Source of the DNA: Limisphaerales bacterium
GTDB lineage: Bacteria > Verrucomicrobiota > Verrucomicrobiia > Limisphaerales > UBA11358
Assembly (NCBI GenBank): GCA_027451565.1
Contig: DAIDJC010000002.1
Location: 6,737-41,066, forward strand
Direction: 5' to 3'
DNA: 34,330 bases
The translations under genes and the position numbers were made by a program. Position 1 is the first letter of the stretch; the number at the start of each line of letters is the position of its first letter. The notes beneath the pieces are model-generated. The model worked only from the letters and a program-made list of their open reading frames with translations, had not been told where the DNA came from and searched no databases. Below are positions 7,602-34,330 of this stretch, piece by piece.

Positions 7602-7904
7602 TCATTGATCGGCACGGGTTGGAAAAATCGCCAGCCGCCTTCCACTCTGAAATTGCGGTCCCAATTGTTTCAAAGATTTTATTTTTGGAAACAAATCAGG
7701 AATCGAAACACCAAGCAATTTGGCCAAAAAGACCAGTTCACAATCAGGCACCCGGCGCAATTGGGCCTCCAGTTTGCCTAATGATCCGACGCTTATGCTC
7801 CAGCCTTGAAGTTGAAGCCTCCGGGCGAGAGCTGATTGAGACCAGCCTTTGCGATTACGGTGTTTCCGCACTTGTGGTCCGACAATGTTCAGCGCCAGCT
7901 TCAT
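7602..7904 (-). CDS. XRE-family helix-turn-helix regulator
   Basis: A 100-aa DNA-binding protein with a single Cro/C1-type helix-turn-helix over about residues 10-70: VRKHRNRKGWSQSALARRL, then a recognition-helix segment SVGSLGKLEAQ, then LVFLAKLLGVSIPDLFP. There is no ligand-binding or dimerisation extension beyond a short basic tail. The opening MKLALNIVGPQVRKHR fits small verrucomicrobial XRE regulators as I recall them. It is divergent from the giant RHS gene across about 129 bp, so it may control that promoter and its own (inference). No operator repeats could be identified with confidence. Confidence 0.87.
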   Translation of the reverse strand: MKLALNIVGPQVRKHRNRKGWSQSALARRLQLQGWSISVGSLGKLEAQLRRVPDCELVFLAKLLGVSIPDLFPKIKSLKQLGPQFQSGRRLAIFPTRADQ

Positions 7905-8033
7905 CGGATCAGGCTAGGCGCATCGAAAAACACAATTTACTCCCACATGAGAATGATAAAATATATTCCGTTGCCTGGATGGAGACGATGTGCTTTACTG
8001 GGCGGGTTTAAGTTAGAAAAGGAAATCATTATC

Positions 8034-11000
8034 ATGAGCGTTCTTTTCAATTCAGGCCGGTGCGCGATTCCGATGCGGGGACGTCCCTTTTTATATTTCT
8101 TGTTGGTTTTGCTCGCCTTCGGCGTGGTCCGCGCTCAGTCGCTGTCCGCCACCAATCAGGCTGTTTCAAGCTACGGCATAATGCCGCCCCTGCCGCCACC
8201 GGCTCCGCCGCTGGTTCTGACCAACCCTCCGCCGGGGCCGGTTCCCCAGTTCCCCTCCTTTTCATCAGAGCCGGCGACCGAGGAAATCGCGGCGGCGCGG
8301 ATATTTCAGGAACCGCTGATTCCGTGCGACAGTGATCCATCGTCGGCCGATAATATTGCCGTGGCTGCAGCGCTGACCGCATTTGCCAACCGGGCCAGTT
8401 CTGATGATTTTTCGGCATTGGAGAGCTATCTGGACAACAATCCTGAAAGTCCCTGGTACAATTCCGTTTTATTCAACTTGGGCTGGGAGTATTACACCAC
8501 CGGCTATTACTCAAAGGCTCTGGCCGCGTGGGAGGAAGCCTGGATGTGGCTTCAGGATGAGTCGGATGGCGCTCCCAGGAGACTGGCAGACCGGTGCATT
8601 GGCGAACTGGCGGAGATGCACGCCCGCATAGGCGATCGCCAGAGGCTGGAGGAGATATTCGGCCAGATCACCAACAGGCCTGTCACCGGCCCGGCCACTT
8701 CCCTGCTTTCCGGCGCGCGCCAGGCGCTCTGGATGATGCAAAACCGCCCTGGTGTTTCGTTCCGTTGCGGCCCGCTCGCCCTGCGGAGCATTTGCAAATT
8801 GCTGCGCCCGCCGTCGGACGTGGATGAAATTGTGGAGGATTCCGAGTCAACGACCAATGGCTTTTCGCTGGATCAGCTTGCCCAGCTTTCGCGGCAGCTC
8901 GGTTTGAACTTTCAGGCGGCGCAGCGGCAGCCTGGCGCGCCACTTCTGCTGCCATGCGTCGTCCATTGGAAGGTCGGCCATTATGCGGCGGTGCTGGCGC
9001 AGAAAGGCAGCCGCTATTTTGTGGTGGACCCCACGTTCGGCGCCAGCCGCTGGATGAGCGGGGAGGCGGTGGATGGCGAGTCCTCGGGCTATTATCTGGT
9101 TCGCGCCGGTGTCCTGACCAACGGCTGGCAGAGTGTCGCCAGCGCCACGGCGGCGGCTGTCTGGGGCAGGGGCGTCACGGCCAGCAGTGATCCCAATTGC
9201 ACAACCGAGCAGGATGCCATGGCCGATCCAAGTTGCAATTCGCACGGAATGGCCGGGTATGACTTCCATCTTTTGCTGGCAAGCCTGCATATCGAGGACA
9301 CGCCGCTTTTGTTTACTCCGCCGCGCGGGCCGCCGGTCCGCCTGACCGTGACCTACAACCAGCAGGAGGCGAACCAGCCAGCCACCTTCAGCTACGCAAA
9401 TTTTGGCGGCAAATGGACGTGCAACTGGATCAGCTACATCACGGACAACAGCACCAACCAGGATGCGGACGTGACCTATTATGCGCCCGGAGGCGGCACG
9501 GAGACATTCACCTATGATCCAACCAACGCAGGTTTTGACATCAACTGGAGGAACCAGGCGGCACTATTGCGGCTTTCCAACAACAGTTACCAGATGAGTT
9601 TCCCGGATGGCTCGGTCCGCATCTTTGGCCAGCCGGATGGGACCGTGGGCAATTCACGCAATGTTTTTCTTACCCAGGTCATTGATCCGGCGGGATACAC
9701 CAACCTGCTCAACTATGATTCCAATTTGCGGCTGGTTTCCGTGACTGATCCCCAGGCGGGTGCCACGAACTTGGCCTTTTATTATACAGCCAGCGGAGGA
9801 TTGTTTCCGGTGGATATTTACAAGATACAGCAAGTGACCGACCGCTACAACCGCACCGCCATTTTTGGGTACAATGCGGACGGCTCGGAATTACAGAGCA
9901 TCACCGATCCCATCGGCATCACCTCGCAGTTCAGCTACGCGCCCAATTCGGATTTCATGGACTCGCTGCAAACGCCGTATGGTAAGACCGCGTTTAGTTT
10001 TGGCGACGACGGGAACGAGCGCTGGCTGGAAGCGGCCGACCCGCAGGGGGGTGTCTCACGGGTGGAATTCAACCAGGCTGATGATCTGGGCATTCCCAGC
10101 TCCGATCCCGGTCCTGTAGTCCCCCGGGGGATTTACACGCGAAATTACATTTTGTATGGGAGGAACACCTTTTATTGGGACAAGAACGCCATGGCCCAGG
10201 CGCCGGGGGATTATTCCAAGGCGCGGCTTTACCACTGGCTGCACAATGCCAACCTTGCCTCCGCCGAGGGTTGCCTGGAGAGCGTCAAGCAACCGCTGGA
10301 AAACCGGGTTTGGTTCAATTATCCCGGCCAGGCCCCGACTGACGCCGGGGCGACAATTTATGGTTCGCAGAACCTGCCCTCGGCCATTGACAGGGTAATG
10401 GATGACGGCAGCGAGCAGTTATATCAATACTCGCGGAATTCCCTGGGCAAGATCACAAATGTCATAGATCCAATCGGAATCGCATACACTTGCGTTTACG
10501 CGGCGAACCAGATTGATTTGCTCCAAGTCAGGAATACTTCCCACGGTTCCAATGAACTGGATGCCAGCTTCACCTACAATTCCCATCACTTGCCGCTGAC
10601 CGAGGTGGATGCTGCCGGTCAGACCAATTTTTATGGATACAACGCCTATGGCCAAATCACCGGCTTCACCAACGCATTGCTGCAGGCAACCTCGTTCAAT
10701 TATGATGCCAGCGGCAGGCTGCTCAACATTGTGGGCCCCACCAACACGGCGGTGATTTCGTTTGGCTATGACGCTTTTGACCGGATCAATGCGGTCACCA
10801 ACGCGGACGGCTATTACGTGACCACGCTTTATGATGCGCTGGACCGGCCCGTGACCAACACGTATCCGGACGGAAGTTCCGAGACCCTCTCGTACCAGAA
10901 CCTGGACCCGTCCACCTACGTGGACCGCGCCGGGAGGCAGACCCGTTTTGTTTTTGACAGCCTGCGGCACCTGACGCAGGTCACCGTGGCGACGAATTGG

Positions 11001-13001
11001 ACCACCTATCTGGACTGGTGCACGTGCGGGAGCATTGACAGCATCACGGATCCCTTGGGCAGGACAACAAGCTGGCTTTACGACATTCAAGGACGGGTCA
11101 CGGCGAAACAATACGCGGATGGAAGCCAAATGAGGTATGGCTATGAAAAAACCACCAGCCGGTTGAAGACCTTCACCAACGAACGAAACCAGGCGAGAAC
11201 ATACCAATACTATGAAAATAATCTTTTAAATGAGGTGATTTACGCCAACCCGTCGGTGACGCCGACGGTGATTTACAACTACGATTATTATGGCCGGATC
11301 CATGCCATGCAGGATGGATACGGGGTGACCTTTTTCAATTATTATCCGGTCACCAATCCGCCCGCGACGGGCGCGGGCCGGCTGCAGTCGGTGGTTGAGC
11401 CAACCGGCTATGACACGCTTTACTACGGCTATGACGCATTGGGGCGAATTAATACCAAGGCCCTGACCAATTCCGTAATCACTTCCGGCACCTCAAGCCT
11501 GGACCCTTTTACTTATCATCACACCTACACATACGACGTTTTGGGCAGGGTGTCCCGGGATGCGGTTGGAGGCGGCGCTTATACATTTAATTATTACGGA
11601 GCTTCTTCGCGTCTTGCCTCAATTGTTTATCCGAGTGTCCTGACAACCACCTTTGGATATTACGGCATCATCGGGGATTTGCGGCTTGCAGGACTGACTA
11701 ATTCAACCGGGGTATCGCTGCTTTCACGATTCAATTATGCTTATAATCTGGAGGGGCAAATCACCAATTCGGTGGAACAGCTTTCCTCCGGGTTAAGGCG
11801 CACAAACACTATTTCGTATGATTCCATCGGCGAGGTGTTGACTGTTGCAACCAATGGCCGCCCTTGTTACAGCTATGCCTACGATTTGGCCGGCAACCGG
11901 ACCTTGGAGCAATCTGGCACCAATACCTGGCGGGCGAGTTTCAATCCCTTGAATGAAATTCAGGGAAAGGATCAGGGGCTTTCCTCCACAAATCGCATTT
12001 ATCAATGGGATGAGGAGAACCGGCTTGTCGCAGTCACCGAAAGCAACACCACAGCGCGGATGGTGTATAACGGTTTCGGCCAGCTTGCTTATTTGACAGA
12101 GTATGCCGGCGGTTCGCCGTCAATGTATCACTGGTATGTGTGGGATGGAGATAAAATTGCGGAGGAATCCTACATCAATACAAATTTCAGCGCTTATTTC
12201 CACTGGTATTACGATTACGGGCATTATGAATCCAGCTCCTCTTATTTCAGCCCGTCTTTGATTTATACCACCCGGGATGGGCTTGGGTCGGTGCGGGAAT
12301 ATTACAGCACCGCCTACCTGGGAGGGGTCCTCCAAATGGAATTTGATTACGATCCATTTGGCAGGAAATCCACCTTGATCAACAGTTTCAATTATTTTGG
12401 ATCGCAAGTGAATTACGCCACGCCGCCGGAATATGGCTTTGCCAACCTGCTGGGCATGCCTGGGCAAAGCCTGGATTTTGCGGAGAACCGTGTGTATGAC
12501 CCTGACTTGGGGAGGTGGATTTCACGGGATCCGATTGGGGAGAAGGGTGGTTTGAATCTTTATGAGTATGGCAATAACGATCCTGAGGATAATGTGGACC
12601 CGGGCGGGTTGTGTCCGCAGCCGGGCGGGGTATTGGGGAAGGGGCAGAGCCGGAACGTGAACGGGGAGATTGTGGATGAAAACGGATTTGCGGTCAAAGA
12701 CCAGCTTAACCCGCTGAATCCGCTGAATTTTCAGGGTGGAAATGCGCCGCTGGGTTTCAGGGCGGAGCAGGCTGTGAGGTGTGATTTTCCTGCTGTGACC
12801 AAATCCCGCCATGGGAGCGTGGGCTTTAAGGCGGCGATCAAGCGATTATACTTGATGCCTTGCCAAATAATTGGCCAGGATGATGGGAAAGGTGATGGTC
12901 ATGGGTGTGGTCTGGCGGGAAACCAACCGAACGGCAATGAAAATCTGGTGGTGTCTGTCGGGGGCTTTGCGATATTTCAGATGACCACAAGCGGAAAGTG
13001 A
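8034..13001 (+). CDS. Giant secreted RHS/YD-repeat protein with N-terminal C39-like peptidase domain
   Basis: RHS proteins form a large beta-cocoon from YD repeats and often carry a variable C-terminal effector. This 1655-aa protein starts with a signal peptide (about residues 1-34, cleavage near VRA-QS). A Pro-rich linker and a TPR-like helical segment (about 115-200) follow. A C39-like papain-fold domain comes next: RCGPLAL (Cys245), VGHYAAVL (His316) and FVVDP (Asp332). The RHS region begins near residue 410 and has dozens of YDxxGR/GY repeats. It ends in the RHS-associated core DPDLGRWISRDPIGE (about 1488-1502) and NLYEYGNNDP. The last ~130 residues are unique and unrecognised. I chose ATG 8034, preceded by AAAAGGAAA; the track start at 7836 has no leader. 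The stop is 8 bp before the next large secreted-protein gene, so they form an operon. Confidence 0.9.
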   Translation: MSVLFNSGRCAIPMRGRPFLYFLLVLLAFGVVRAQSLSATNQAVSSYGIMPPLPPPAPPLVLTNPPPGPVPQFPSFSSEPATEEIAAARIFQEPLIPCDSDPSSADNIAVAAALTAFANRASSDDFSALESYLDNNPESPWYNSVLFNLGWEYYTTGYYSKALAAWEEAWMWLQDESDGAPRRLADRCIGELAEMHARIGDRQRLEEIFGQITNRPVTGPATSLLSGARQALWMMQNRPGVSFRCGPLALRSICKLLRPPSDVDEIVEDSESTTNGFSLDQLAQLSRQLGLNFQAAQRQPGAPLLLPCVVHWKVGHYAAVLAQKGSRYFVVDPTFGASRWMSGEAVDGESSGYYLVRAGVLTNGWQSVASATAAAVWGRGVTASSDPNCTTEQDAMADPSCNSHGMAGYDFHLLLASLHIEDTPLLFTPPRGPPVRLTVTYNQQEANQPATFSYANFGGKWTCNWISYITDNSTNQDADVTYYAPGGGTETFTYDPTNAGFDINWRNQAALLRLSNNSYQMSFPDGSVRIFGQPDGTVGNSRNVFLTQVIDPAGYTNLLNYDSNLRLVSVTDPQAGATNLAFYYTASGGLFPVDIYKIQQVTDRYNRTAIFGYNADGSELQSITDPIGITSQFSYAPNSDFMDSLQTPYGKTAFSFGDDGNERWLEAADPQGGVSRVEFNQADDLGIPSSDPGPVVPRGIYTRNYILYGRNTFYWDKNAMAQAPGDYSKARLYHWLHNANLASAEGCLESVKQPLENRVWFNYPGQAPTDAGATIYGSQNLPSAIDRVMDDGSEQLYQYSRNSLGKITNVIDPIGIAYTCVYAANQIDLLQVRNTSHGSNELDASFTYNSHHLPLTEVDAAGQTNFYGYNAYGQITGFTNALLQATSFNYDASGRLLNIVGPTNTAVISFGYDAFDRINAVTNADGYYVTTLYDALDRPVTNTYPDGSSETLSYQNLDPSTYVDRAGRQTRFVFDSLRHLTQVTVATNWTTYLDWCTCGSIDSITDPLGRTTSWLYDIQGRVTAKQYADGSQMRYGYEKTTSRLKTFTNERNQARTYQYYENNLLNEVIYANPSVTPTVIYNYDYYGRIHAMQDGYGVTFFNYYPVTNPPATGAGRLQSVVEPTGYDTLYYGYDALGRINTKALTNSVITSGTSSLDPFTYHHTYTYDVLGRVSRDAVGGGAYTFNYYGASSRLASIVYPSVLTTTFGYYGIIGDLRLAGLTNSTGVSLLSRFNYAYNLEGQITNSVEQLSSGLRRTNTISYDSIGEVLTVATNGRPCYSYAYDLAGNRTLEQSGTNTWRASFNPLNEIQGKDQGLSSTNRIYQWDEENRLVAVTESNTTARMVYNGFGQLAYLTEYAGGSPSMYHWYVWDGDKIAEESYINTNFSAYFHWYYDYGHYESSSSYFSPSLIYTTRDGLGSVREYYSTAYLGGVLQMEFDYDPFGRKSTLINSFNYFGSQVNYATPPEYGFANLLGMPGQSLDFAENRVYDPDLGRWISRDPIGEKGGLNLYEYGNNDPEDNVDPGGLCPQPGGVLGKGQSRNVNGEIVDENGFAVKDQLNPLNPLNFQGGNAPLGFRAEQAVRCDFPAVTKSRHGSVGFKAAIKRLYLMPCQIIGQDDGKGDGHGCGLAGNQPNGNENLVVSVGGFAIFQMTTSGK

Positions 13002-13009
13002 CTTGAAAA

Positions 13010-16000
13010 ATGAGCGCATATCACGCCAAACAAATGCTGATATTTGTCATCGCTGGCATTCTGGCTTGTTTTTTGCCGCGTCTGCAGTCCCAAATTGTTT
13101 ACTCCTATGATTCCTCAGGCAACCCGACCAATTCGATATTGGATGCGACCCAGCCCCTGAGTTCCTCCGTGTCCAACAGCCTCCGAAACGTGTTGCTGGG
13201 GCAATCCCTGTCCTTGTGCGTGGAGGCGGCCGGCAGCGGTATCATCACCTATCAGTGGCAACTGGATGGCATGGACATTGCCGGGGCAACCAATGCAACA
13301 TTTTTCACGCCCCAAACCTCCGCTGCGAACGCGGGTTCCTATTCGGTGATTGTATCGAACGGTTCAACCACGCAAACCAATCAACTGGGAAACATCGCGG
13401 TCGCAGGCGCTGCCGGCACGCTATACGCCGCCGCCTTTGGATTGGGCGAGTTTGTTGCAGTGGGCTCCACTGGAACCATAATTGGCTCTTCGAATCTTCT
13501 CGCATGGTCCGCATTTGACTCAGGCACGACCAATCAACTGAATGGCGTTGTTTTTGAAACAAATGTTTTTGTGGCAGTTGGGGCGGCAGGCACAATTCTG
13601 ACTTCGACCAACGGAACCTCCTGGGTGAGCCAGGATTTCTCAAAAACAAATTCATTGAATGGAATTGCATATGGAAACGGCCTGTTTTTAGCTGTGGGCG
13701 ATTTAGGAGAAGTCCTGACTTCCATGGATGGAACGAACTGGGCGCAACAGTCATTTGGCAATCCCAAACTGCTTGGGGTGGTGTTTGGAGGAGGTCATTT
13801 TGTGGCAGTGGGTACCGGCGGCTCTGTGTGGACTTCACTGGATGGCACTAATTGGCAGAGCCAAATAACTCCAGAGATTGGCACCCTCAACGCCGTGGCC
13901 TACGGAAACGGCCTTTATGTGGCGGCGGGGGACGATGGCGCGATTTTGAGTTCAGTCGACAGCACCAATTGGACTCCGCAGGTGAGCGGCACCCCGGATA
14001 ATTTCACATCGGTCCTGTTTTATGACCAAACGTTTTACGCAATTGGCCCTGCGGGGCAAAATTATATTTCGTCGGATGCTGAGGAGTGGGAGGAGAGTGA
14101 TGCGGGAACTTTCATTCCGCTGTGGGGTTCAAAGGTTTGCAATGGCATCCCGGTGGCGACGGGTGAGAACGGCCTGGTTCTGCAAATTCCGACTTACAAA
14201 CTGGATCACTTTGGGTGGAGTGTGATTTCATCCCCGCAACGGGTGAACCAGCCTTTTGCGGCAACCATAACCGCCTCGGACGCCGCCGGGAACACGGTTT
14301 CAAATTTCAATGGCCTCGTTTCTCTTTCGTCCTCAACAAGCATGACTTCGTCCAAGAACATGATTCTGGGCAGTGTTGCGCCGGGTTATTCCGCATCCGG
14401 ATCGGAAACCGCTGGTTATGCCTTCACGCCAAATGCGAACTTGCTGGTCACGGATGTGCGCCATTATGATGTGGCGCAAAAGGTCTGCATCTGGGCGGAA
14501 AATGGGGATTTGCTGGCAAGTGTTGATGTGACAAACAACCCCGGGAACTGGGTGGACACGCCAATGCCGGAGCCGCTCACGCTGGCTGCGGGGTCCAATT
14601 ATGTGGTCAGCGTTTACACCGGGGACAACACCAACACTCTTTTTTATTACCGGGATGACGGACCCGGCGTCTTTGCGAATGGAACGATTGACCAGGCATT
14701 GGCTGGCAATGGCGACGCCTTTCCGGGCGAACCCAGCTATGCCTTCTGGTACCTGGTTGACCTGGGCTATGCGGTTCAGGTTGGAGAGACAAACCTCATT
14801 AATCCGTCATCGGCGACTTTTGAGAACGGTTTGGCAACGGTTCAATTAACGGCATCAGACGCGGGACAGGACATCACGCTGACGGCCAATGACAATTCGG
14901 GACACTCCGGCGTGAGCGGACCCTTTGACGTTCTTGGCACCAACGACATTGCTGTAACGATGTTCTCATCCCCAAATCCTGTGGCTGTGGAGAGCAACCT
15001 GACCTACACCATCACAGTCATGAATGCCGGTCCCAACGCCGCAACCGGGGTGGTCGTCACGAATATTTTACCGGCGAGCGCCAGCTTTGTTTCAGCCAGT
15101 TCAAGTTTGGGGTCATGTCAATATTCTGCAGGAGAGGTTACATGCAATATTGGGAATTTACCCAACCAGAACACGGCGACGATCACGATCACTGCAACGC
15201 CTGCATTGGCCGGGATAACGTTGACAGACTTGGTTAATATCGCAGAGTCCGGGGCTGATTCAGATCCTTCCGACAACGCGGCAACCAATCTGACCTTCGT
15301 GCCGCCCACGCTGACGATTGGAAATATTCTCGTGTTTGAGCCAAGCTATGGAATTGAAGGTTTTCCAATGACAATCAACCTTTCATCGCCCAGCGTCCTT
15401 GATGTCGAGTTCGATTTCTCCACAATGGATGGAACGAATGCCATTGCCGGACGGGATTATGATGCCTTGAGCGGAAAAGTCAACATTCCAGCCGGCGTCA
15501 CCACAACCAACCTGTTTGTCTGGATTCAAGGGAGCGCAGCGGCGTCCCCGCCCAAAGAGTTCTTCGTCAAACTTTCCTCACCTGTCAATGCGACTTTTGC
15601 CTCGGCCGTGGGCGCCGTTATCATTCTCAATCCGAACGGCCAGCCCGGCCAGTTGGATGGCTTTTCCTGGGGATCGGTGCCTTCGCCACAGTCAACAAAT
15701 GCCGCCTTCAGAGTCACGCTTTCGGCGCAGGACGCGTTTGGCAATGCGGTGACCAATTATACCGGTCCAGTGGCTTTGACGGGCGTCAATCTCAATGATG
15801 CAACCAACACACTTCTGGCAAGTCCCCTGCCGGAAAACTCAGCCAGCACTGCGATCATGACAACGGGCTACGCCTTCACGCCAACCAATGATATTTTTGT
15901 CATGGGCGTGCGGTCCTATTCGGGATCGAAAGTATCCATTTGGACGGAAACCGGTTTTTTGCTGGCAAGCCAGAATGTTTCAAGCCAGCCGGGAGCATGG

Positions 16001-17368
16001 ACTGACACGCCGCTGGCAAGGCCTGTGTGGCTGCAAGCCGGCAACACGTACCTCATCGGCTCATTCACCGATGGCGGCGCTTATTATTGGCGGGAGGATG
16101 GGGCGATGAAATTTTCGAATGGGGAGATTTCCCAGGGATATTCCTGCCTGGGAGATGCATTCCCAACCAATTTCGACAGCGCGCAATGGTATCTGGTTGA
16201 CTTGCGCTATGCGAATGCAGCCTCCATTTCGCCATCCGTTTCCGGCGTATTTGTCAATGGAGTCTGGACTGGAAACATGACTGCTGGAGAGTTGGGAACG
16301 AACTTCATGCTTCTTGCCAATGACCGCGAAGGCCATATCGGCTTTTCAAATCCGTTTGGAGTTTATGCCACCAATGACCTTGCTTTGACACTTTCGACAT
16401 CGCCCGCAATACCTTTGGCGTTTTCGAATCTGGCTTACAGTGTCACCATCCTGAATCCCGGCCCTGATTCGTCAACAGGCGTCCTGATGACCAACATCCT
16501 TCCATCTGGCGCAAATTTTGTCTCAGCCGCTACCAGCCAGGGGGCCTGCAGTGAGGCCGGAGGCATTGTCACCGCCAATTTGGGAACGATGGCCGCCTTT
16601 TCCTCTGCAACAGTCACGATCACGGTTGAGCCAATGGTCGCAGGTCTGCCACTCACCAACAGTGCGAACGTTACGCGCAACGAACCTGATCCTGATTTGG
16701 AGGATAATTCTGCGGTTTCGGTAGTCATACCAAACGAATCTCTTACAACTCAAATTGCCAGTTCTCTGGGCTATGGTGCCACTCCCTGGCTCAGCGGCGG
16801 CGACGCACTCTGGGGAACGGAGGGCAATGTGACCCACGGTGGCACAAATGCAGCGCAAAGCGGGGCGATTGTGGAAGGCCAGCAAACTTGGATTCAAACA
16901 AGGGTTTATGGACCCGGGACCCTGAGTTTTTGGTGGTCTGTATCGTCGGAAGCGGGCAGCGATAGCCTGAGCCTTCTGACCAACGGCGTGGTTGCAACCG
17001 ATATTTCGGGAAGCATCGGCTGGCAGCAAGTAACTCTTGCATTACCTCCAGGTCACACGACAGTGGAGTGGAATTATTCCAAGAGCGGGGCGATCAGCGC
17101 AGGCTTGGATGCAGGCTGGCTGGACCAGGTGGTGTTCTCCCGGACGCCAACAACCTTGAATTCGATTTTAATGAATACCAACGGGGATTTTGATTTTTCC
17201 CTGAATGGCATGGTGGGACAAATCCTGGTTTTGCAAACGTCAACCAATCTATTCAACTGGGTTTCGCTGAATACCAACACCATGACCAGTGGAACTCTTC
17301 ATTTTACGAATTCGACACCCACAAATTCACCCATTGAATTTTACAGGGCCTTGGATGTCACGCCATAG
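13010..17368 (+). CDS. Large secreted multidomain beta-rich protein (Ig, propeller-like, DUF4082-like, DUF11, Calx-beta)
   Basis: Exported protein of 1452 aa, probably for adhesion or surface binding (inference). A signal peptide occupies about residues 1-27. Next is an Ig-like domain (YQWQLDGMDIAGAT...AGSYSVIVSNG, about 55-125). Six or seven ~40-aa repeats follow to about 385, of the type GLFLAVGDLGEVLTSMDGTNW, which should fold as a propeller. An Ig-like linker leads to a DUF4082-like domain (about 459-590), a DUF11 repeat (about 644-763) and a Calx-beta domain (about 764-874). A second linker, DUF4082-like and DUF11 set then runs to about 1242, followed by a jelly-roll-like domain (SFWWSVSSE...WQQVTLALP). 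The C-terminus is an NW...FYR-type module. No PEP-CTERM, LPXTG or clear type IX sorting signal is visible. It starts 8 bp after the RHS stop. Confidence 0.87.
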   Translation: MSAYHAKQMLIFVIAGILACFLPRLQSQIVYSYDSSGNPTNSILDATQPLSSSVSNSLRNVLLGQSLSLCVEAAGSGIITYQWQLDGMDIAGATNATFFTPQTSAANAGSYSVIVSNGSTTQTNQLGNIAVAGAAGTLYAAAFGLGEFVAVGSTGTIIGSSNLLAWSAFDSGTTNQLNGVVFETNVFVAVGAAGTILTSTNGTSWVSQDFSKTNSLNGIAYGNGLFLAVGDLGEVLTSMDGTNWAQQSFGNPKLLGVVFGGGHFVAVGTGGSVWTSLDGTNWQSQITPEIGTLNAVAYGNGLYVAAGDDGAILSSVDSTNWTPQVSGTPDNFTSVLFYDQTFYAIGPAGQNYISSDAEEWEESDAGTFIPLWGSKVCNGIPVATGENGLVLQIPTYKLDHFGWSVISSPQRVNQPFAATITASDAAGNTVSNFNGLVSLSSSTSMTSSKNMILGSVAPGYSASGSETAGYAFTPNANLLVTDVRHYDVAQKVCIWAENGDLLASVDVTNNPGNWVDTPMPEPLTLAAGSNYVVSVYTGDNTNTLFYYRDDGPGVFANGTIDQALAGNGDAFPGEPSYAFWYLVDLGYAVQVGETNLINPSSATFENGLATVQLTASDAGQDITLTANDNSGHSGVSGPFDVLGTNDIAVTMFSSPNPVAVESNLTYTITVMNAGPNAATGVVVTNILPASASFVSASSSLGSCQYSAGEVTCNIGNLPNQNTATITITATPALAGITLTDLVNIAESGADSDPSDNAATNLTFVPPTLTIGNILVFEPSYGIEGFPMTINLSSPSVLDVEFDFSTMDGTNAIAGRDYDALSGKVNIPAGVTTTNLFVWIQGSAAASPPKEFFVKLSSPVNATFASAVGAVIILNPNGQPGQLDGFSWGSVPSPQSTNAAFRVTLSAQDAFGNAVTNYTGPVALTGVNLNDATNTLLASPLPENSASTAIMTTGYAFTPTNDIFVMGVRSYSGSKVSIWTETGFLLASQNVSSQPGAWTDTPLARPVWLQAGNTYLIGSFTDGGAYYWREDGAMKFSNGEISQGYSCLGDAFPTNFDSAQWYLVDLRYANAASISPSVSGVFVNGVWTGNMTAGELGTNFMLLANDREGHIGFSNPFGVYATNDLALTLSTSPAIPLAFSNLAYSVTILNPGPDSSTGVLMTNILPSGANFVSAATSQGACSEAGGIVTANLGTMAAFSSATVTITVEPMVAGLPLTNSANVTRNEPDPDLEDNSAVSVVIPNESLTTQIASSLGYGATPWLSGGDALWGTEGNVTHGGTNAAQSGAIVEGQQTWIQTRVYGPGTLSFWWSVSSEAGSDSLSLLTNGVVATDISGSIGWQQVTLALPPGHTTVEWNYSKSGAISAGLDAGWLDQVVFSRTPTTLNSILMNTNGDFDFSLNGMVGQILVLQTSTNLFNWVSLNTNTMTSGTLHFTNSTPTNSPIEFYRALDVTP

Positions 17369-21439: not shown

Positions 21440-21640
21440 TTGAGGGTGATGATAGGAAGCTCTTTGAAATCGGCGGGGATTTTCCCTGCCGGAAATGACC
21501 ATTCAATGTCTGGGAACCCGGTGAAATACCGGGACGGTTGCGCCACTGTAACGGCTACAAGTTCCAAAACCACTGGTTTGAAAAAACCGGGAAGGTGGGA
21601 CAAGGTTTGATGCCGGAGTCAGGATACCGGTTGATTGGTT
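21440..21640 (+). ncRNA. Cobalamin (adenosylcobalamin-type) riboswitch
   Basis: The conserved blocks are present in order. An 8-bp P2-like arm CGGCGGGG/CCCTGCCG lies at 21471-21491. TGGGAA at 21511 is followed by GGTGAAATACC (21520-21530). The core GCGCCACTGTAA spans 21540-21551. A second CCACTGG at 21571 leads to CCGGGAAGG (21587-21595). The B12 box GCCGGAGTCAGGATACC is at 21612-21628. Spacing fits the known class. The 5' boundary is approximate because I could not pair the P1 stem with certainty. A terminator follows 90 nt downstream, so control is probably by premature termination when cobalamin is bound. The regulated genes are a secreted protein and a prepilin-like protein, not a recognised B12 synthesis or transport gene. 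Confidence 0.92.
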
Positions 21641-21696
21641 CTCGTCGGTCCGGGACGTTTCCGGATTCTTCCCCGCAAAGGGAAGGATGAGGCCAG

Positions 21697-21719
21697 GCCG
21701 CCCAACTGTTTTGGGCGGC
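21697..21719 (+). promoter_or_regulatory. Leader hairpin between riboswitch and terminator
   Basis: A perfect 9-bp stem, GCCGCCCAA/TTGGGCGGC, encloses CTGTT. No T run follows, so it is not a terminator by itself. It may be part of an antiterminator or sequestering fold linking the aptamer to the terminator. Confidence 0.5.
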
Positions 21720-21731
21720 TCGTTGAATTTA

Positions 21732-21769
21732 CCTCCATTCTTCGTTTGCGAAGGCTGGAGGTTTTTTTT
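21732..21769 (+). terminator. Intrinsic terminator of the cobalamin riboswitch leader
   Basis: CCTCCA pairs with TGGAGG, and CTTCG with CGAAG, across a small internal loop (TT opposite GC) and a TTTG tetraloop. Eight T residues follow directly. This is a strong Rho-independent terminator about 80 nt upstream of the first start codon and about 100 nt after the B12 box, as expected for a transcriptional riboswitch expression platform. Confidence 0.8.
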
Positions 21770-21807
21770 CCTCCCGTCTCGCGCTGGTTCTCCATGTTCG
21801 CGTCACC

Positions 21808-21833
21808 GCCCCGCGTCATCCGCGGGGCATTTT
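21808..21833 (+). promoter_or_regulatory. GC-rich hairpin just upstream of the ribosome binding site
   Basis: A perfect 8-bp stem GCCCCGCG/CGCGGGGC around TCATC is followed by ATTTT. It ends only a few bases before GAAAGG, the probable ribosome binding site of the gene at 21848. It could be a second terminator or a translation-modulating structure. Confidence 0.5.
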
Positions 21834-21847
21834 GAAAGGTTCGTACA

Positions 21848-22804
21848 ATGAAGAAATGGTCGTTGGTGCTTGTGATCCACGGGTTGCTTTCGGTTTGGCT
21901 GCTTTCAGCAGACACCCTTGTTGAAAAATTTGATTCCAATCCCTTTTTGGATGGCTGGCAGGTGTATGGAGACACCAACCTGTTCAAGTGGGACTCCACC
22001 AACCGGGTTTTGGATGTCACTTGGGATTCCACCCAGACGAACAGTTATTTTTTTCATCCCTTGGGGCGCACCCTGACCATCCAGGACGGGTTCTGCGTGG
22101 TTTTTGACCTTCAGTTGACCAACGCCTCGACCCAAAATTATGGGTCAGAGCTGGCTGTTGGACTTTTGAACTATACGAATGCCACCAGCAGTTCTTTTTC
22201 ACGGAGCCTTGGCATCTCCCCGAATGTCTGGGAATTTGATTATTTCCCCCCTTACAATGATCAGGGATACATCGGGGCTCCCTCCCTGGATGCCTCCCTC
22301 GTGGATGCCCAGACCAACTTTTTTTTCATCTACACCAACATCCTCATGAATAACGCGGTGACTTATCATGTTTTGTTGGAACATGAGCCAGGTGCCACGG
22401 GGATTTCCGGGGCCATTTACACCAACGGCCTATTGATGACCGCGCTGCCCATCGTGGATAATTATCTTCCTTCAGGAGACAATGGCGCGTTTGCCTTGGA
22501 CACCCTCGCCGTGATGAATTACGCTGACGATGGGGCAGGGGACGACATTCTGGCGCATGGGACGGTTAAAAATCTGGCCTGCGCATCCCCACTGCCGGTG
22601 GGCGGCCTGCAAACGACCGGGCCGGGACAGGTGGTTTTTGCCAGTGACACCAACTGGGTTTACACGCTGCTTCAGACTGGGGATTTTGTGAATTGGACAC
22701 CTGCGGCGTTGCCGGTGGCTGGGTCTGGCGGTTCCCTGGTGTTGCAAGCCACCAACACGGTGAACCTTCATGACAGTTACAGGGTCCGGGCGGATTTGAG
22801 ATGA
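21848..22804 (+). CDS. Secreted beta-sandwich-like protein under cobalamin riboswitch control
   Basis: I do not recognise a named family. The 318-aa protein has a signal peptide (MKKWSLVLVIHGLLSVWLLSA). A beta-rich domain follows (about residues 22-240), beginning LVEKFDSNPFLDGWQVYGD with alternating hydrophobic strands. It looks like the LamG/concanavalin-type jelly-roll domains of verrucomicrobial secreted proteins, but that is inference. The last ~60 residues (VYTLLQTGDFVNWTPA...SYRVRADLR) are the same kind of NW...YRV module that ends the 1452-aa protein. The ATG is preceded by GAAAGG at a good distance. The gene lies behind a cobalamin riboswitch with terminator and is followed 3 bp later by a prepilin-like gene. 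Binding of a corrinoid or a surface ligand is a hypothesis suggested only by this regulation. Confidence 0.85.
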   Translation: MKKWSLVLVIHGLLSVWLLSADTLVEKFDSNPFLDGWQVYGDTNLFKWDSTNRVLDVTWDSTQTNSYFFHPLGRTLTIQDGFCVVFDLQLTNASTQNYGSELAVGLLNYTNATSSSFSRSLGISPNVWEFDYFPPYNDQGYIGAPSLDASLVDAQTNFFFIYTNILMNNAVTYHVLLEHEPGATGISGAIYTNGLLMTALPIVDNYLPSGDNGAFALDTLAVMNYADDGAGDDILAHGTVKNLACASPLPVGGLQTTGPGQVVFASDTNWVYTLLQTGDFVNWTPAALPVAGSGGSLVLQATNTVNLHDSYRVRADLR

Positions 22805-22807
22805 CGG

Positions 22808-23653
22808 ATGGCTGCCGTTTGTTCCATGTCACAATCCAAGCCAAAAGCGGGCGGGCCTTTCCACGGGTTGGGGAGCGAAATTCTCCGGCCCTTGGCGAGA
22901 CCTGAGTCCGCCTTCTCGCTGGTGGAACTACTGGTGGTAATAGCCATCGTGGGGATACTTTCCGCCATGCTGCTTCCGGCTCTGGCGCGATCCAAGGCGG
23001 CGTCCCAGGCGGCTTGCTGCATATCCAACTTGCAGCAATTGGGTGAGGCCGCCCAACTTTACCTCATGGATAACCAGGATGTTTTTTTCAGCCGTTGTGG
23101 CGTGGCTTCTGCCCAAGGGCAGGAGTGGTGGTTCGGTTGGTTGCAAGGCTCATCGGTGCCTGAAGGGCACCGGGGTTATGATTTGGCAGCCGGCTGCCTT
23201 TACCCCTATCTCGGTGTTGATGGTGTCCGGCTTTGTCCATCCCCTTTCTGGTCCTCACCCTTGTTCAAGCCCAAGGGCACCAATGTCATTTGCAGCTATG
23301 GATGCAACGGCCTGCTTTTCCCGGGCCCGGGGCAGGCTGCTGTGGTTGCAGGCGCGCTCAAACATCCCGCAGATGTCGCTTGGTTTGCGGATTCAGCCCA
23401 GGTCAACACCTTTCAGCCTCCGGCCTCCCCCTCCCATCCCATGTTTGAGGAATTTTATTATGTGGATCTGGAAACCAATTACAGCCGTCCGGATAATCAA
23501 CCCAACGGCCAGTTTCGACATGGGCAAAAATCCAACGTCACCTTTGCCGATGGCCATGTGGCGGCCCAGGCTCCAGTTCCTGGGTCTTATGATTCACGGC
23601 TGCCCGAGTTTGTCATAGGCCAGTTGCCCCCTTCCATCCTGTTGTTTCAATAA
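22808..23653 (+). CDS. Prepilin-type N-terminal methylation domain protein with H-X9-DG motif
   Basis: Type II secretion/type IV pilus pseudopilin-like protein of 281 aa. The N-terminal leader of about 36 residues ends at SAFSLVELLVVIAIVGILSAMLLPAL, the prepilin peptidase site and hydrophobic assembly helix. Conserved residues SKAASQAACCISNLQQLGEAAQLYLMD follow. Near the C-terminus RHGQKSNVTFADGHV gives the H-X9-DG signature of a large pseudopilin group in Planctomycetota and Verrucomicrobiota (DUF1559-like). The leader is longer than usual; ATG 22826 is an alternative start. Only 3 bp separate it from the upstream gene, so it shares the cobalamin riboswitch transcript. No secretion ATPase, platform protein or prepilin peptidase is encoded in the window. 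It may act as a minor pseudopilin or as an envelope-anchored binding protein. Confidence 0.92.
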   Translation: MAAVCSMSQSKPKAGGPFHGLGSEILRPLARPESAFSLVELLVVIAIVGILSAMLLPALARSKAASQAACCISNLQQLGEAAQLYLMDNQDVFFSRCGVASAQGQEWWFGWLQGSSVPEGHRGYDLAAGCLYPYLGVDGVRLCPSPFWSSPLFKPKGTNVICSYGCNGLLFPGPGQAAVVAGALKHPADVAWFADSAQVNTFQPPASPSHPMFEEFYYVDLETNYSRPDNQPNGQFRHGQKSNVTFADGHVAAQAPVPGSYDSRLPEFVIGQLPPSILLFQ

Positions 23654-34271: not shown

Positions 34272-34330
34272 TGGCGCGCCCGACAGGAATCGAACCTGTG
34301 ACCTTTGGCTTCGGAAACCAACACTCTATC
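34272..34330 (-). tRNA. tRNA-Arg (anticodon CCG), 5' end beyond the window
   Basis: Reading the minus strand, the anticodon arm is TTGGT-TTCCGAA-GCCAA, giving anticodon CCG (codon CGG, Arg). It is followed by a short variable loop and a perfect T arm ACAGG-TTCGATT-CCTGT. The 3' half of the acceptor stem (CGGGCGC), discriminator G and an encoded CCA come last. The D arm is partly visible (GATAGAGTG) and the 5' acceptor half is outside the window. The 3' end faces the truncated glycosyltransferase, the side used by tRNA-targeting integrases. Confidence 0.93.

Follow-up and report, generated by a model that had tools for sequence, protein, structure and literature searches.

How B12-dependent bacteria without BtuB obtain the vitamin is an open question, and the locus described here, in which a cobalamin riboswitch had been predicted to control a gene for a secreted protein, bears on it. 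The window analysed, i.e., the whole stretch of 34,330 nucleotides from contig DAIDJC010000002.1 (GCA_027451565.1), belongs to a 3.19 Mb metagenome-assembled genome (MAG) of a Limisphaerales bacterium. Among named relatives, the nearest were MAGs of Verrucomicrobiota with the labels Limisphaerales, subdivision 3 or Pedosphaera, and the comparison was made with 97 genomes of the same order, which are also MAGs and are partly incomplete. As to what the riboswitch controls, the locus is probably a B12-repressed operon for the capture of corrinoids outside the cell, and the local form of a module of the Verrucomicrobiota.

The predicted riboswitch was confirmed by running cmscan with the Rfam models, which returned RF00174 at positions 21487–21649 of the forward strand at 79.3 bits and E = 3.8e-18 (gathering score 31.5), in an alignment spanning the whole model (1–189). 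The conserved aptamer blocks named in the original prediction were all read in the sequence, namely GCGCCACTGTAA, the CCACTGG...GGGAAGG stem and the B12 box GCCGGAGTCAGGATACC (21612–21628). The intrinsic terminator with eight T residues announced about 100 nt 3′ of the B12 box was also found, as the expression platform, at 21731–21769 of the same strand (hairpin 21731–21762, T8 21762–21769), with a dG of −18.3 kcal/mol and a z-score of −4.9, and none of 200 shuffled sequences reached an equal stability. Between the aptamer and the terminator, the scan for terminator-like structures revealed a further GC-rich hairpin (21696–21720, forward strand; GGCCGCCC...GGGCGGCT), whose tail is poor in T. 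It must be noted that terminator-like hairpins occurred in 77 of the 80 leaders of the module but also in 32% of simple shuffles, and therefore their frequency alone is weak evidence; the better evidence is the recurrence in relatives of the hairpin sequence itself (CCUYCAUUC..GGAGGU6-8), which is that of the same terminator hairpin. Binding of corrinoid favours termination in this riboswitch class, and the window riboswitch would be in its terminated OFF state when corrinoid is bound.

Downstream of a possible ribosome-binding site (GAAAGG, 21834–21839, forward strand), which lies 8 nt 5′ of an ATG start codon, the same strand encodes protein A (21848–22804, 318 aa). This ORF can be considered real because homologues of its translation were found in 70 of the 97 relatives, with 68 strong matches (E < 1e-15). 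Three nucleotides after A, on the forward strand, begins a second gene encoding the prepilin-like protein B (22808–23653, 281 aa), and since the next gene past B, of the phosphoglucomutase/phosphomannomutase type, lies on the opposite strand, the regulated unit consists of A and B. Thus, the 318-aa gene given as the controlled one stood, while the unit proved to be a two-gene operon whose second member had been missed. No TonB plug or barrel domains were found in this operon.

Protein B carries the N-terminal prepilin methylation motif (aa 32–56), with 28.1 bits against a cut-off of 21.2 for PF07963 and a score over the cut-off for TIGR02532. Its C-terminus may be of the H-X9-DG type (TIGR04294), for which it reached 18.4 bits against a cut-off of 19 and the relative L089 20.9. 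The nearest known kind are the H-X9-DG/DUF1559-type prepilin-like proteins, with which it has the methylation motif and possibly this C-terminal end in common, and for which no link to B12 was found in the literature consulted. That B is a member of a large class of uncharacterized pilin-like proteins counts against a reading of the operon as one of corrinoid capture.

Protein A has a signal-peptide-like N-terminus, as judged by eye, followed by a lectin-like beta sandwich named AN (approximately residues 21–247) and a small C-terminal domain named AC (approximately residues 248–318). It had no sequence match in Pfam, NCBIfam or the PDB, and a PDB search with the profile of the family gave weak lectin matches only, of no use. 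The AlphaFold2 model of A (pLDDT 88) matched in Foldseek legume lectins, the carbohydrate recognition domain of Emp47p and the lectin domains of surface adhesins (E = 3e-7 to 6e-6; TM-score on the query 0.35–0.47), with no B12 protein among the matches listed. On the basis of this model A belongs to the legume-lectin-like fold class, which is not proof of family, and the expectation that it was probably a jelly-roll protein was right at that level. The near-invariant positions of the family are grouped in GWQ..GDTNLFxW and VTWDSxxxNSYF, and the ligand of A may be a corrinoid, a glycan or a partner protein.

Such a fold, together with the pairing of A with a pilin-like protein, would also suit a response of adhesion to B12 starvation, in which lectin A and pilin B would attach the cell to polysaccharide or corrinoid-producing neighbours and in this way help the supply of B12 with no binding of corrinoid. 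In addition, the window genome has no A0, the exported domain described below, and for this reason lacks the known B12-binding domain of the module. However, lectin folds often bind other ligands, A is fused in several genomes to A0, which is BtuH-like, A exchanges its slot with another domain, W, and some of the operons hold DUF71, BtuF and DUF6580. Considering both sides, we regard adhesion alone as rather unlikely. In the favoured reading, that of corrinoid capture, the riboswitch and its terminator would shut off the A-B operon when intracellular corrinoid is plentiful, and when B12 is scarce the cell would make A and B, both exported, the first lectin-like and the second pilin-like. Acting together, they would gather corrinoid from outside the cell and deliver it to the envelope, with A itself as a putative corrinoid binder.

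The original prediction had named, as one of its refuting outcomes, homologues of A that never co-occur with the riboswitch, and the opposite was observed. RF00174 was present in 92 of the 97 relatives, and 62 of the 68 strong A matches lay 199–1573 nt 3′ of a riboswitch on the same strand, a placement expected by chance in about 0.04% of cases (about 4e-4 each). Among the six exceptions, two were at contig ends, one had the cobalamin riboswitch RF01482 instead, another was an A0-A fusion beside DUF71 and DUF6580, and the last two stood alone in genomes whose riboswitch leads A0 elsewhere. In another collection, which overlaps the 97 genomes and is not independent of them, a riboswitch preceded 78 of 80 named loci (53 by the B12-box pattern and 25 by Rfam). 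In the RF01482 case (L167:3879-4014), this different class of cobalamin riboswitch stands 5′ of fused A0 and A, which looks like an exchange of the regulator.

All frames 3′ of the 101 riboswitches of the 97 genomes were then read. The riboswitch led the module at 80 loci, spread over dozens of family-level groups, BtuB at 10 and a ribonucleotide reductase (RNR) at 8, the remaining 3 being cut by contig ends; B was found in 73 of the 80 module loci. A chance or relic riboswitch was rejected in view of the 62/68 association and the 80/101 module loci. A related explanation is that A and B are passengers, the riboswitch of a degraded or rearranged B12 operon now driving unrelated exported genes. 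The second A copy of the window genome is indeed broken, and the Verrucomicrobiota are rich in exported proteins of the PEP-CTERM and pilin-like kinds. Nevertheless, the breadth of the arrangement among the 101 loci, the switch of riboswitch class at one locus and the B12-linked partners within the operons speak against it, and it is extremely improbable.

Four unrelated domain families recur in the module, with hhalign probabilities below 1% among them, including AN against A0. The window protein has the architecture AN+AC, and in about eight genomes W takes the slot of AN before the same AC domain. A0 is an exported domain encoded 5′ of A or fused to it, and fusions of the type W+A0+AC also occur. 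Part of the operons also carry genes for DUF71 (DUF71-B12), DUF6580 and BtuF-like proteins. W, characterized by a WGYRWDG motif, belongs to no known family (riboswitch modules L075, L077, L080 and L270–L279), and the PDB sequence search with it gave nothing useful. A further recurring element is the cysteine-rich CWC domain (PF14375), frequently seen in fusions with B or BtuF, or 3′ of BtuB together with DUF5522 (L089, L077, L106, L090 and L153), and CPLCG/CWC motifs were seen in 25 riboswitch loci.

A link to known B12 binders comes from A0. Its profile matched BtuG1 (8blw_B) with E = 3e-7 and BtuH2 (7biz_A) with a weaker 0.059, both alignments being collinear along the BtuH domain, and the best three PDB fold matches of its model (pLDDT 87) in Foldseek were 8blw_B, 7biz_B and 7biz_A. 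At its C-terminus, BtuG1 of Bacteroides thetaiotaomicron carries a BtuH domain (PMC10404256), the kind of domain with which BtuH2 binds B12 (PMC8941943). By profile and predicted fold, the A0 of other genomes is a homologous BtuH-type domain; the overall TM-scores with BtuG1 and BtuH2 were about 0.44, and this is therefore domain homology and not close similarity. A0 followed RF00174 in 36 of 38 genomes, and of the other two one had an RF01482 riboswitch and one had A0 beside DUF71/DUF6580. The corrinoid direction of the function first described as an unassigned corrinoid-related surface function is thus supported, but given the BtuH-type A0 it is no longer wholly unassigned. Membership of A itself in the BtuH family was rejected by the lack of a PDB sequence match, the lectin fold matches and the AN-A0 probability, and membership in DUF4465 (BtuJ) by the absence of PF14717 from A and from all 97 relatives.

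With respect to BtuB, the genomes with a riboswitch-led module (78) and those with a riboswitch-linked BtuB (9) did not overlap, an exclusivity that is partly built in because each genome usually has one such riboswitch. The stronger point is that the TonB plug domain was absent from 30 of the 78 module genomes and present in all 9 BtuB genomes (Fisher p 0.02). The five highest scores for the TonB-B12 model TIGR01779 all corresponded to riboswitch-linked receptors, and the window genome had no match to it at E ≤ 1e-20. In some module genomes, receptors reached 130–168 bits, equal to some riboswitch-linked ones, and BtuB elsewhere in these genomes is therefore possible. The position controlled by the riboswitch, elsewhere that of BtuB, is in many of these species held by the module. 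A bolder proposal is that B12 crosses the outer membrane without BtuB or TonB, with A, W and A0 passing corrinoid to B, as a dedicated pilin-like protein under riboswitch control, and a pilus- or type-II-like machine carrying out its import with DUF6580 as the carrier in the inner membrane; we consider this unlikely.

Since the operon encodes no outer-membrane channel, and the DUF71-B12 and CWC-domain partners suggest remodelling, it might serve a corrinoid step other than uptake, such as sensing, storage or the handling of corrinoids from lysed cells. Against this, the module holds the place of BtuB under the riboswitch and the Bacteroides relatives of A0 function in capture at the cell surface (PMC8941943; PMC10404256), so that we find a role of this kind very unlikely compared with capture.

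As for the inner membrane, FecCD (PF01032) scored like real BtuC in only 3 of the 97 genomes, the other matches giving 50 bits or less, and BtuCD was rejected as the partner on these grounds. Because true BtuC is so rare here, DUF6580 is a candidate cobamide transporter; the subgroup linked to the operons scored about 200 bits, and the PDB sequence search with DUF6580 gave nothing useful. This membrane protein is encoded next to DUF71 and BtuF in the riboswitch operons of seven loci (L090, L091, L183, L219, L224, L236 and L249), from genomes without BtuC. Its candidate role would parallel that of BtuM, which elsewhere replaces BtuCDF (PMC6072759).

The window genome has three RF00174 matches, that of A-B and two more. 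Ribonucleotide reductase is a known kind of target for cobalamin riboswitches, and the third riboswitch (L003) precedes an RNR-like gene, identified by eye; in one relative, Pfam confirmed the identity of this gene 3′ of a riboswitch, and this arrangement was found in eight relatives. The second riboswitch (contig C65 of the window genome, G000; L002, L124) precedes a broken second copy of A, which lacks a stretch of its N-terminal domain and has an interrupted frame; DUF71 follows, and then DUF6580, of which the contig end leaves the beginning only. The DUF71 protein of this copy contains ENGEFHS, and ENGEFH was also found in four other loci; it carries the motif of the DUF71-B12 subgroup, in which ENGEF/YH stands in place of EGGE/DxE (PMC3541065).

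The closest known systems are BtuG, BtuH and BtuJ of Bacteroides (PMC6143338; PMC8941943; PMC10404256; PMC12751083), which are likewise exported B12-binding proteins in cobalamin-riboswitch operons, and with whose BtuH domain A0 shares homology. Unlike these, the operons of the module lack a BtuB partner, their products are seemingly exported by PEP-CTERM or a plain signal peptide and not as lipoproteins, they have AN and W domains of their own, and a prepilin-like protein is encoded in nearly every one. BtuB itself (TIGR01779), which in 9 relatives stands behind the same riboswitch leader in the position of the module, has no relation of sequence or architecture to the module and, when linked to the riboswitch, was never found together with it. 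The DUF4465/BtuJ jelly-roll proteins, one of them from a Verrucomicrobiota species, are beta-rich B12 binders, likewise exported, and often associated with loci for B12 transport (PMC13398666), but PF14717 is missing from the relatives and no DUF4465 structure was among the fold matches listed for A. The unexpected features of this conserved and apparently undescribed module are its pilin partner and the missing BtuB; no description of it was found in the literature on the riboswitch combined with PEP-CTERM, pilin or Verrucomicrobia. The module follows about 80% of the cobalamin riboswitches detected in one large order and also reaches other classes. It extends the BtuH domain beyond the Bacteroidota, suggests for several unannotated families a role in B12 capture that can be tested, and opens the possibility that a pilin-like protein participates in the uptake of a vitamin.

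Regarding its distribution in the phylum, A was absent from the 240 other genomes sampled across it (241 with that of the window), and A0 was present in 15 of these genomes of other classes, with RF00174 close by in 9 of 12 such loci. The ten distant A0 regions that were read all contained A0 and B, and most of them W. It is likely that riboswitch-W-A0-B is the older form and that AN arrived later in this order. Elsewhere in the window, 7836–13001 and 13010–17368 encode very large proteins, with RHS repeats and a C39 peptidase and with DUF11/DUF4082/Calx-beta/Ig domains, and a tRNA gene on the reverse strand (34275–34330) is cut by the window end.
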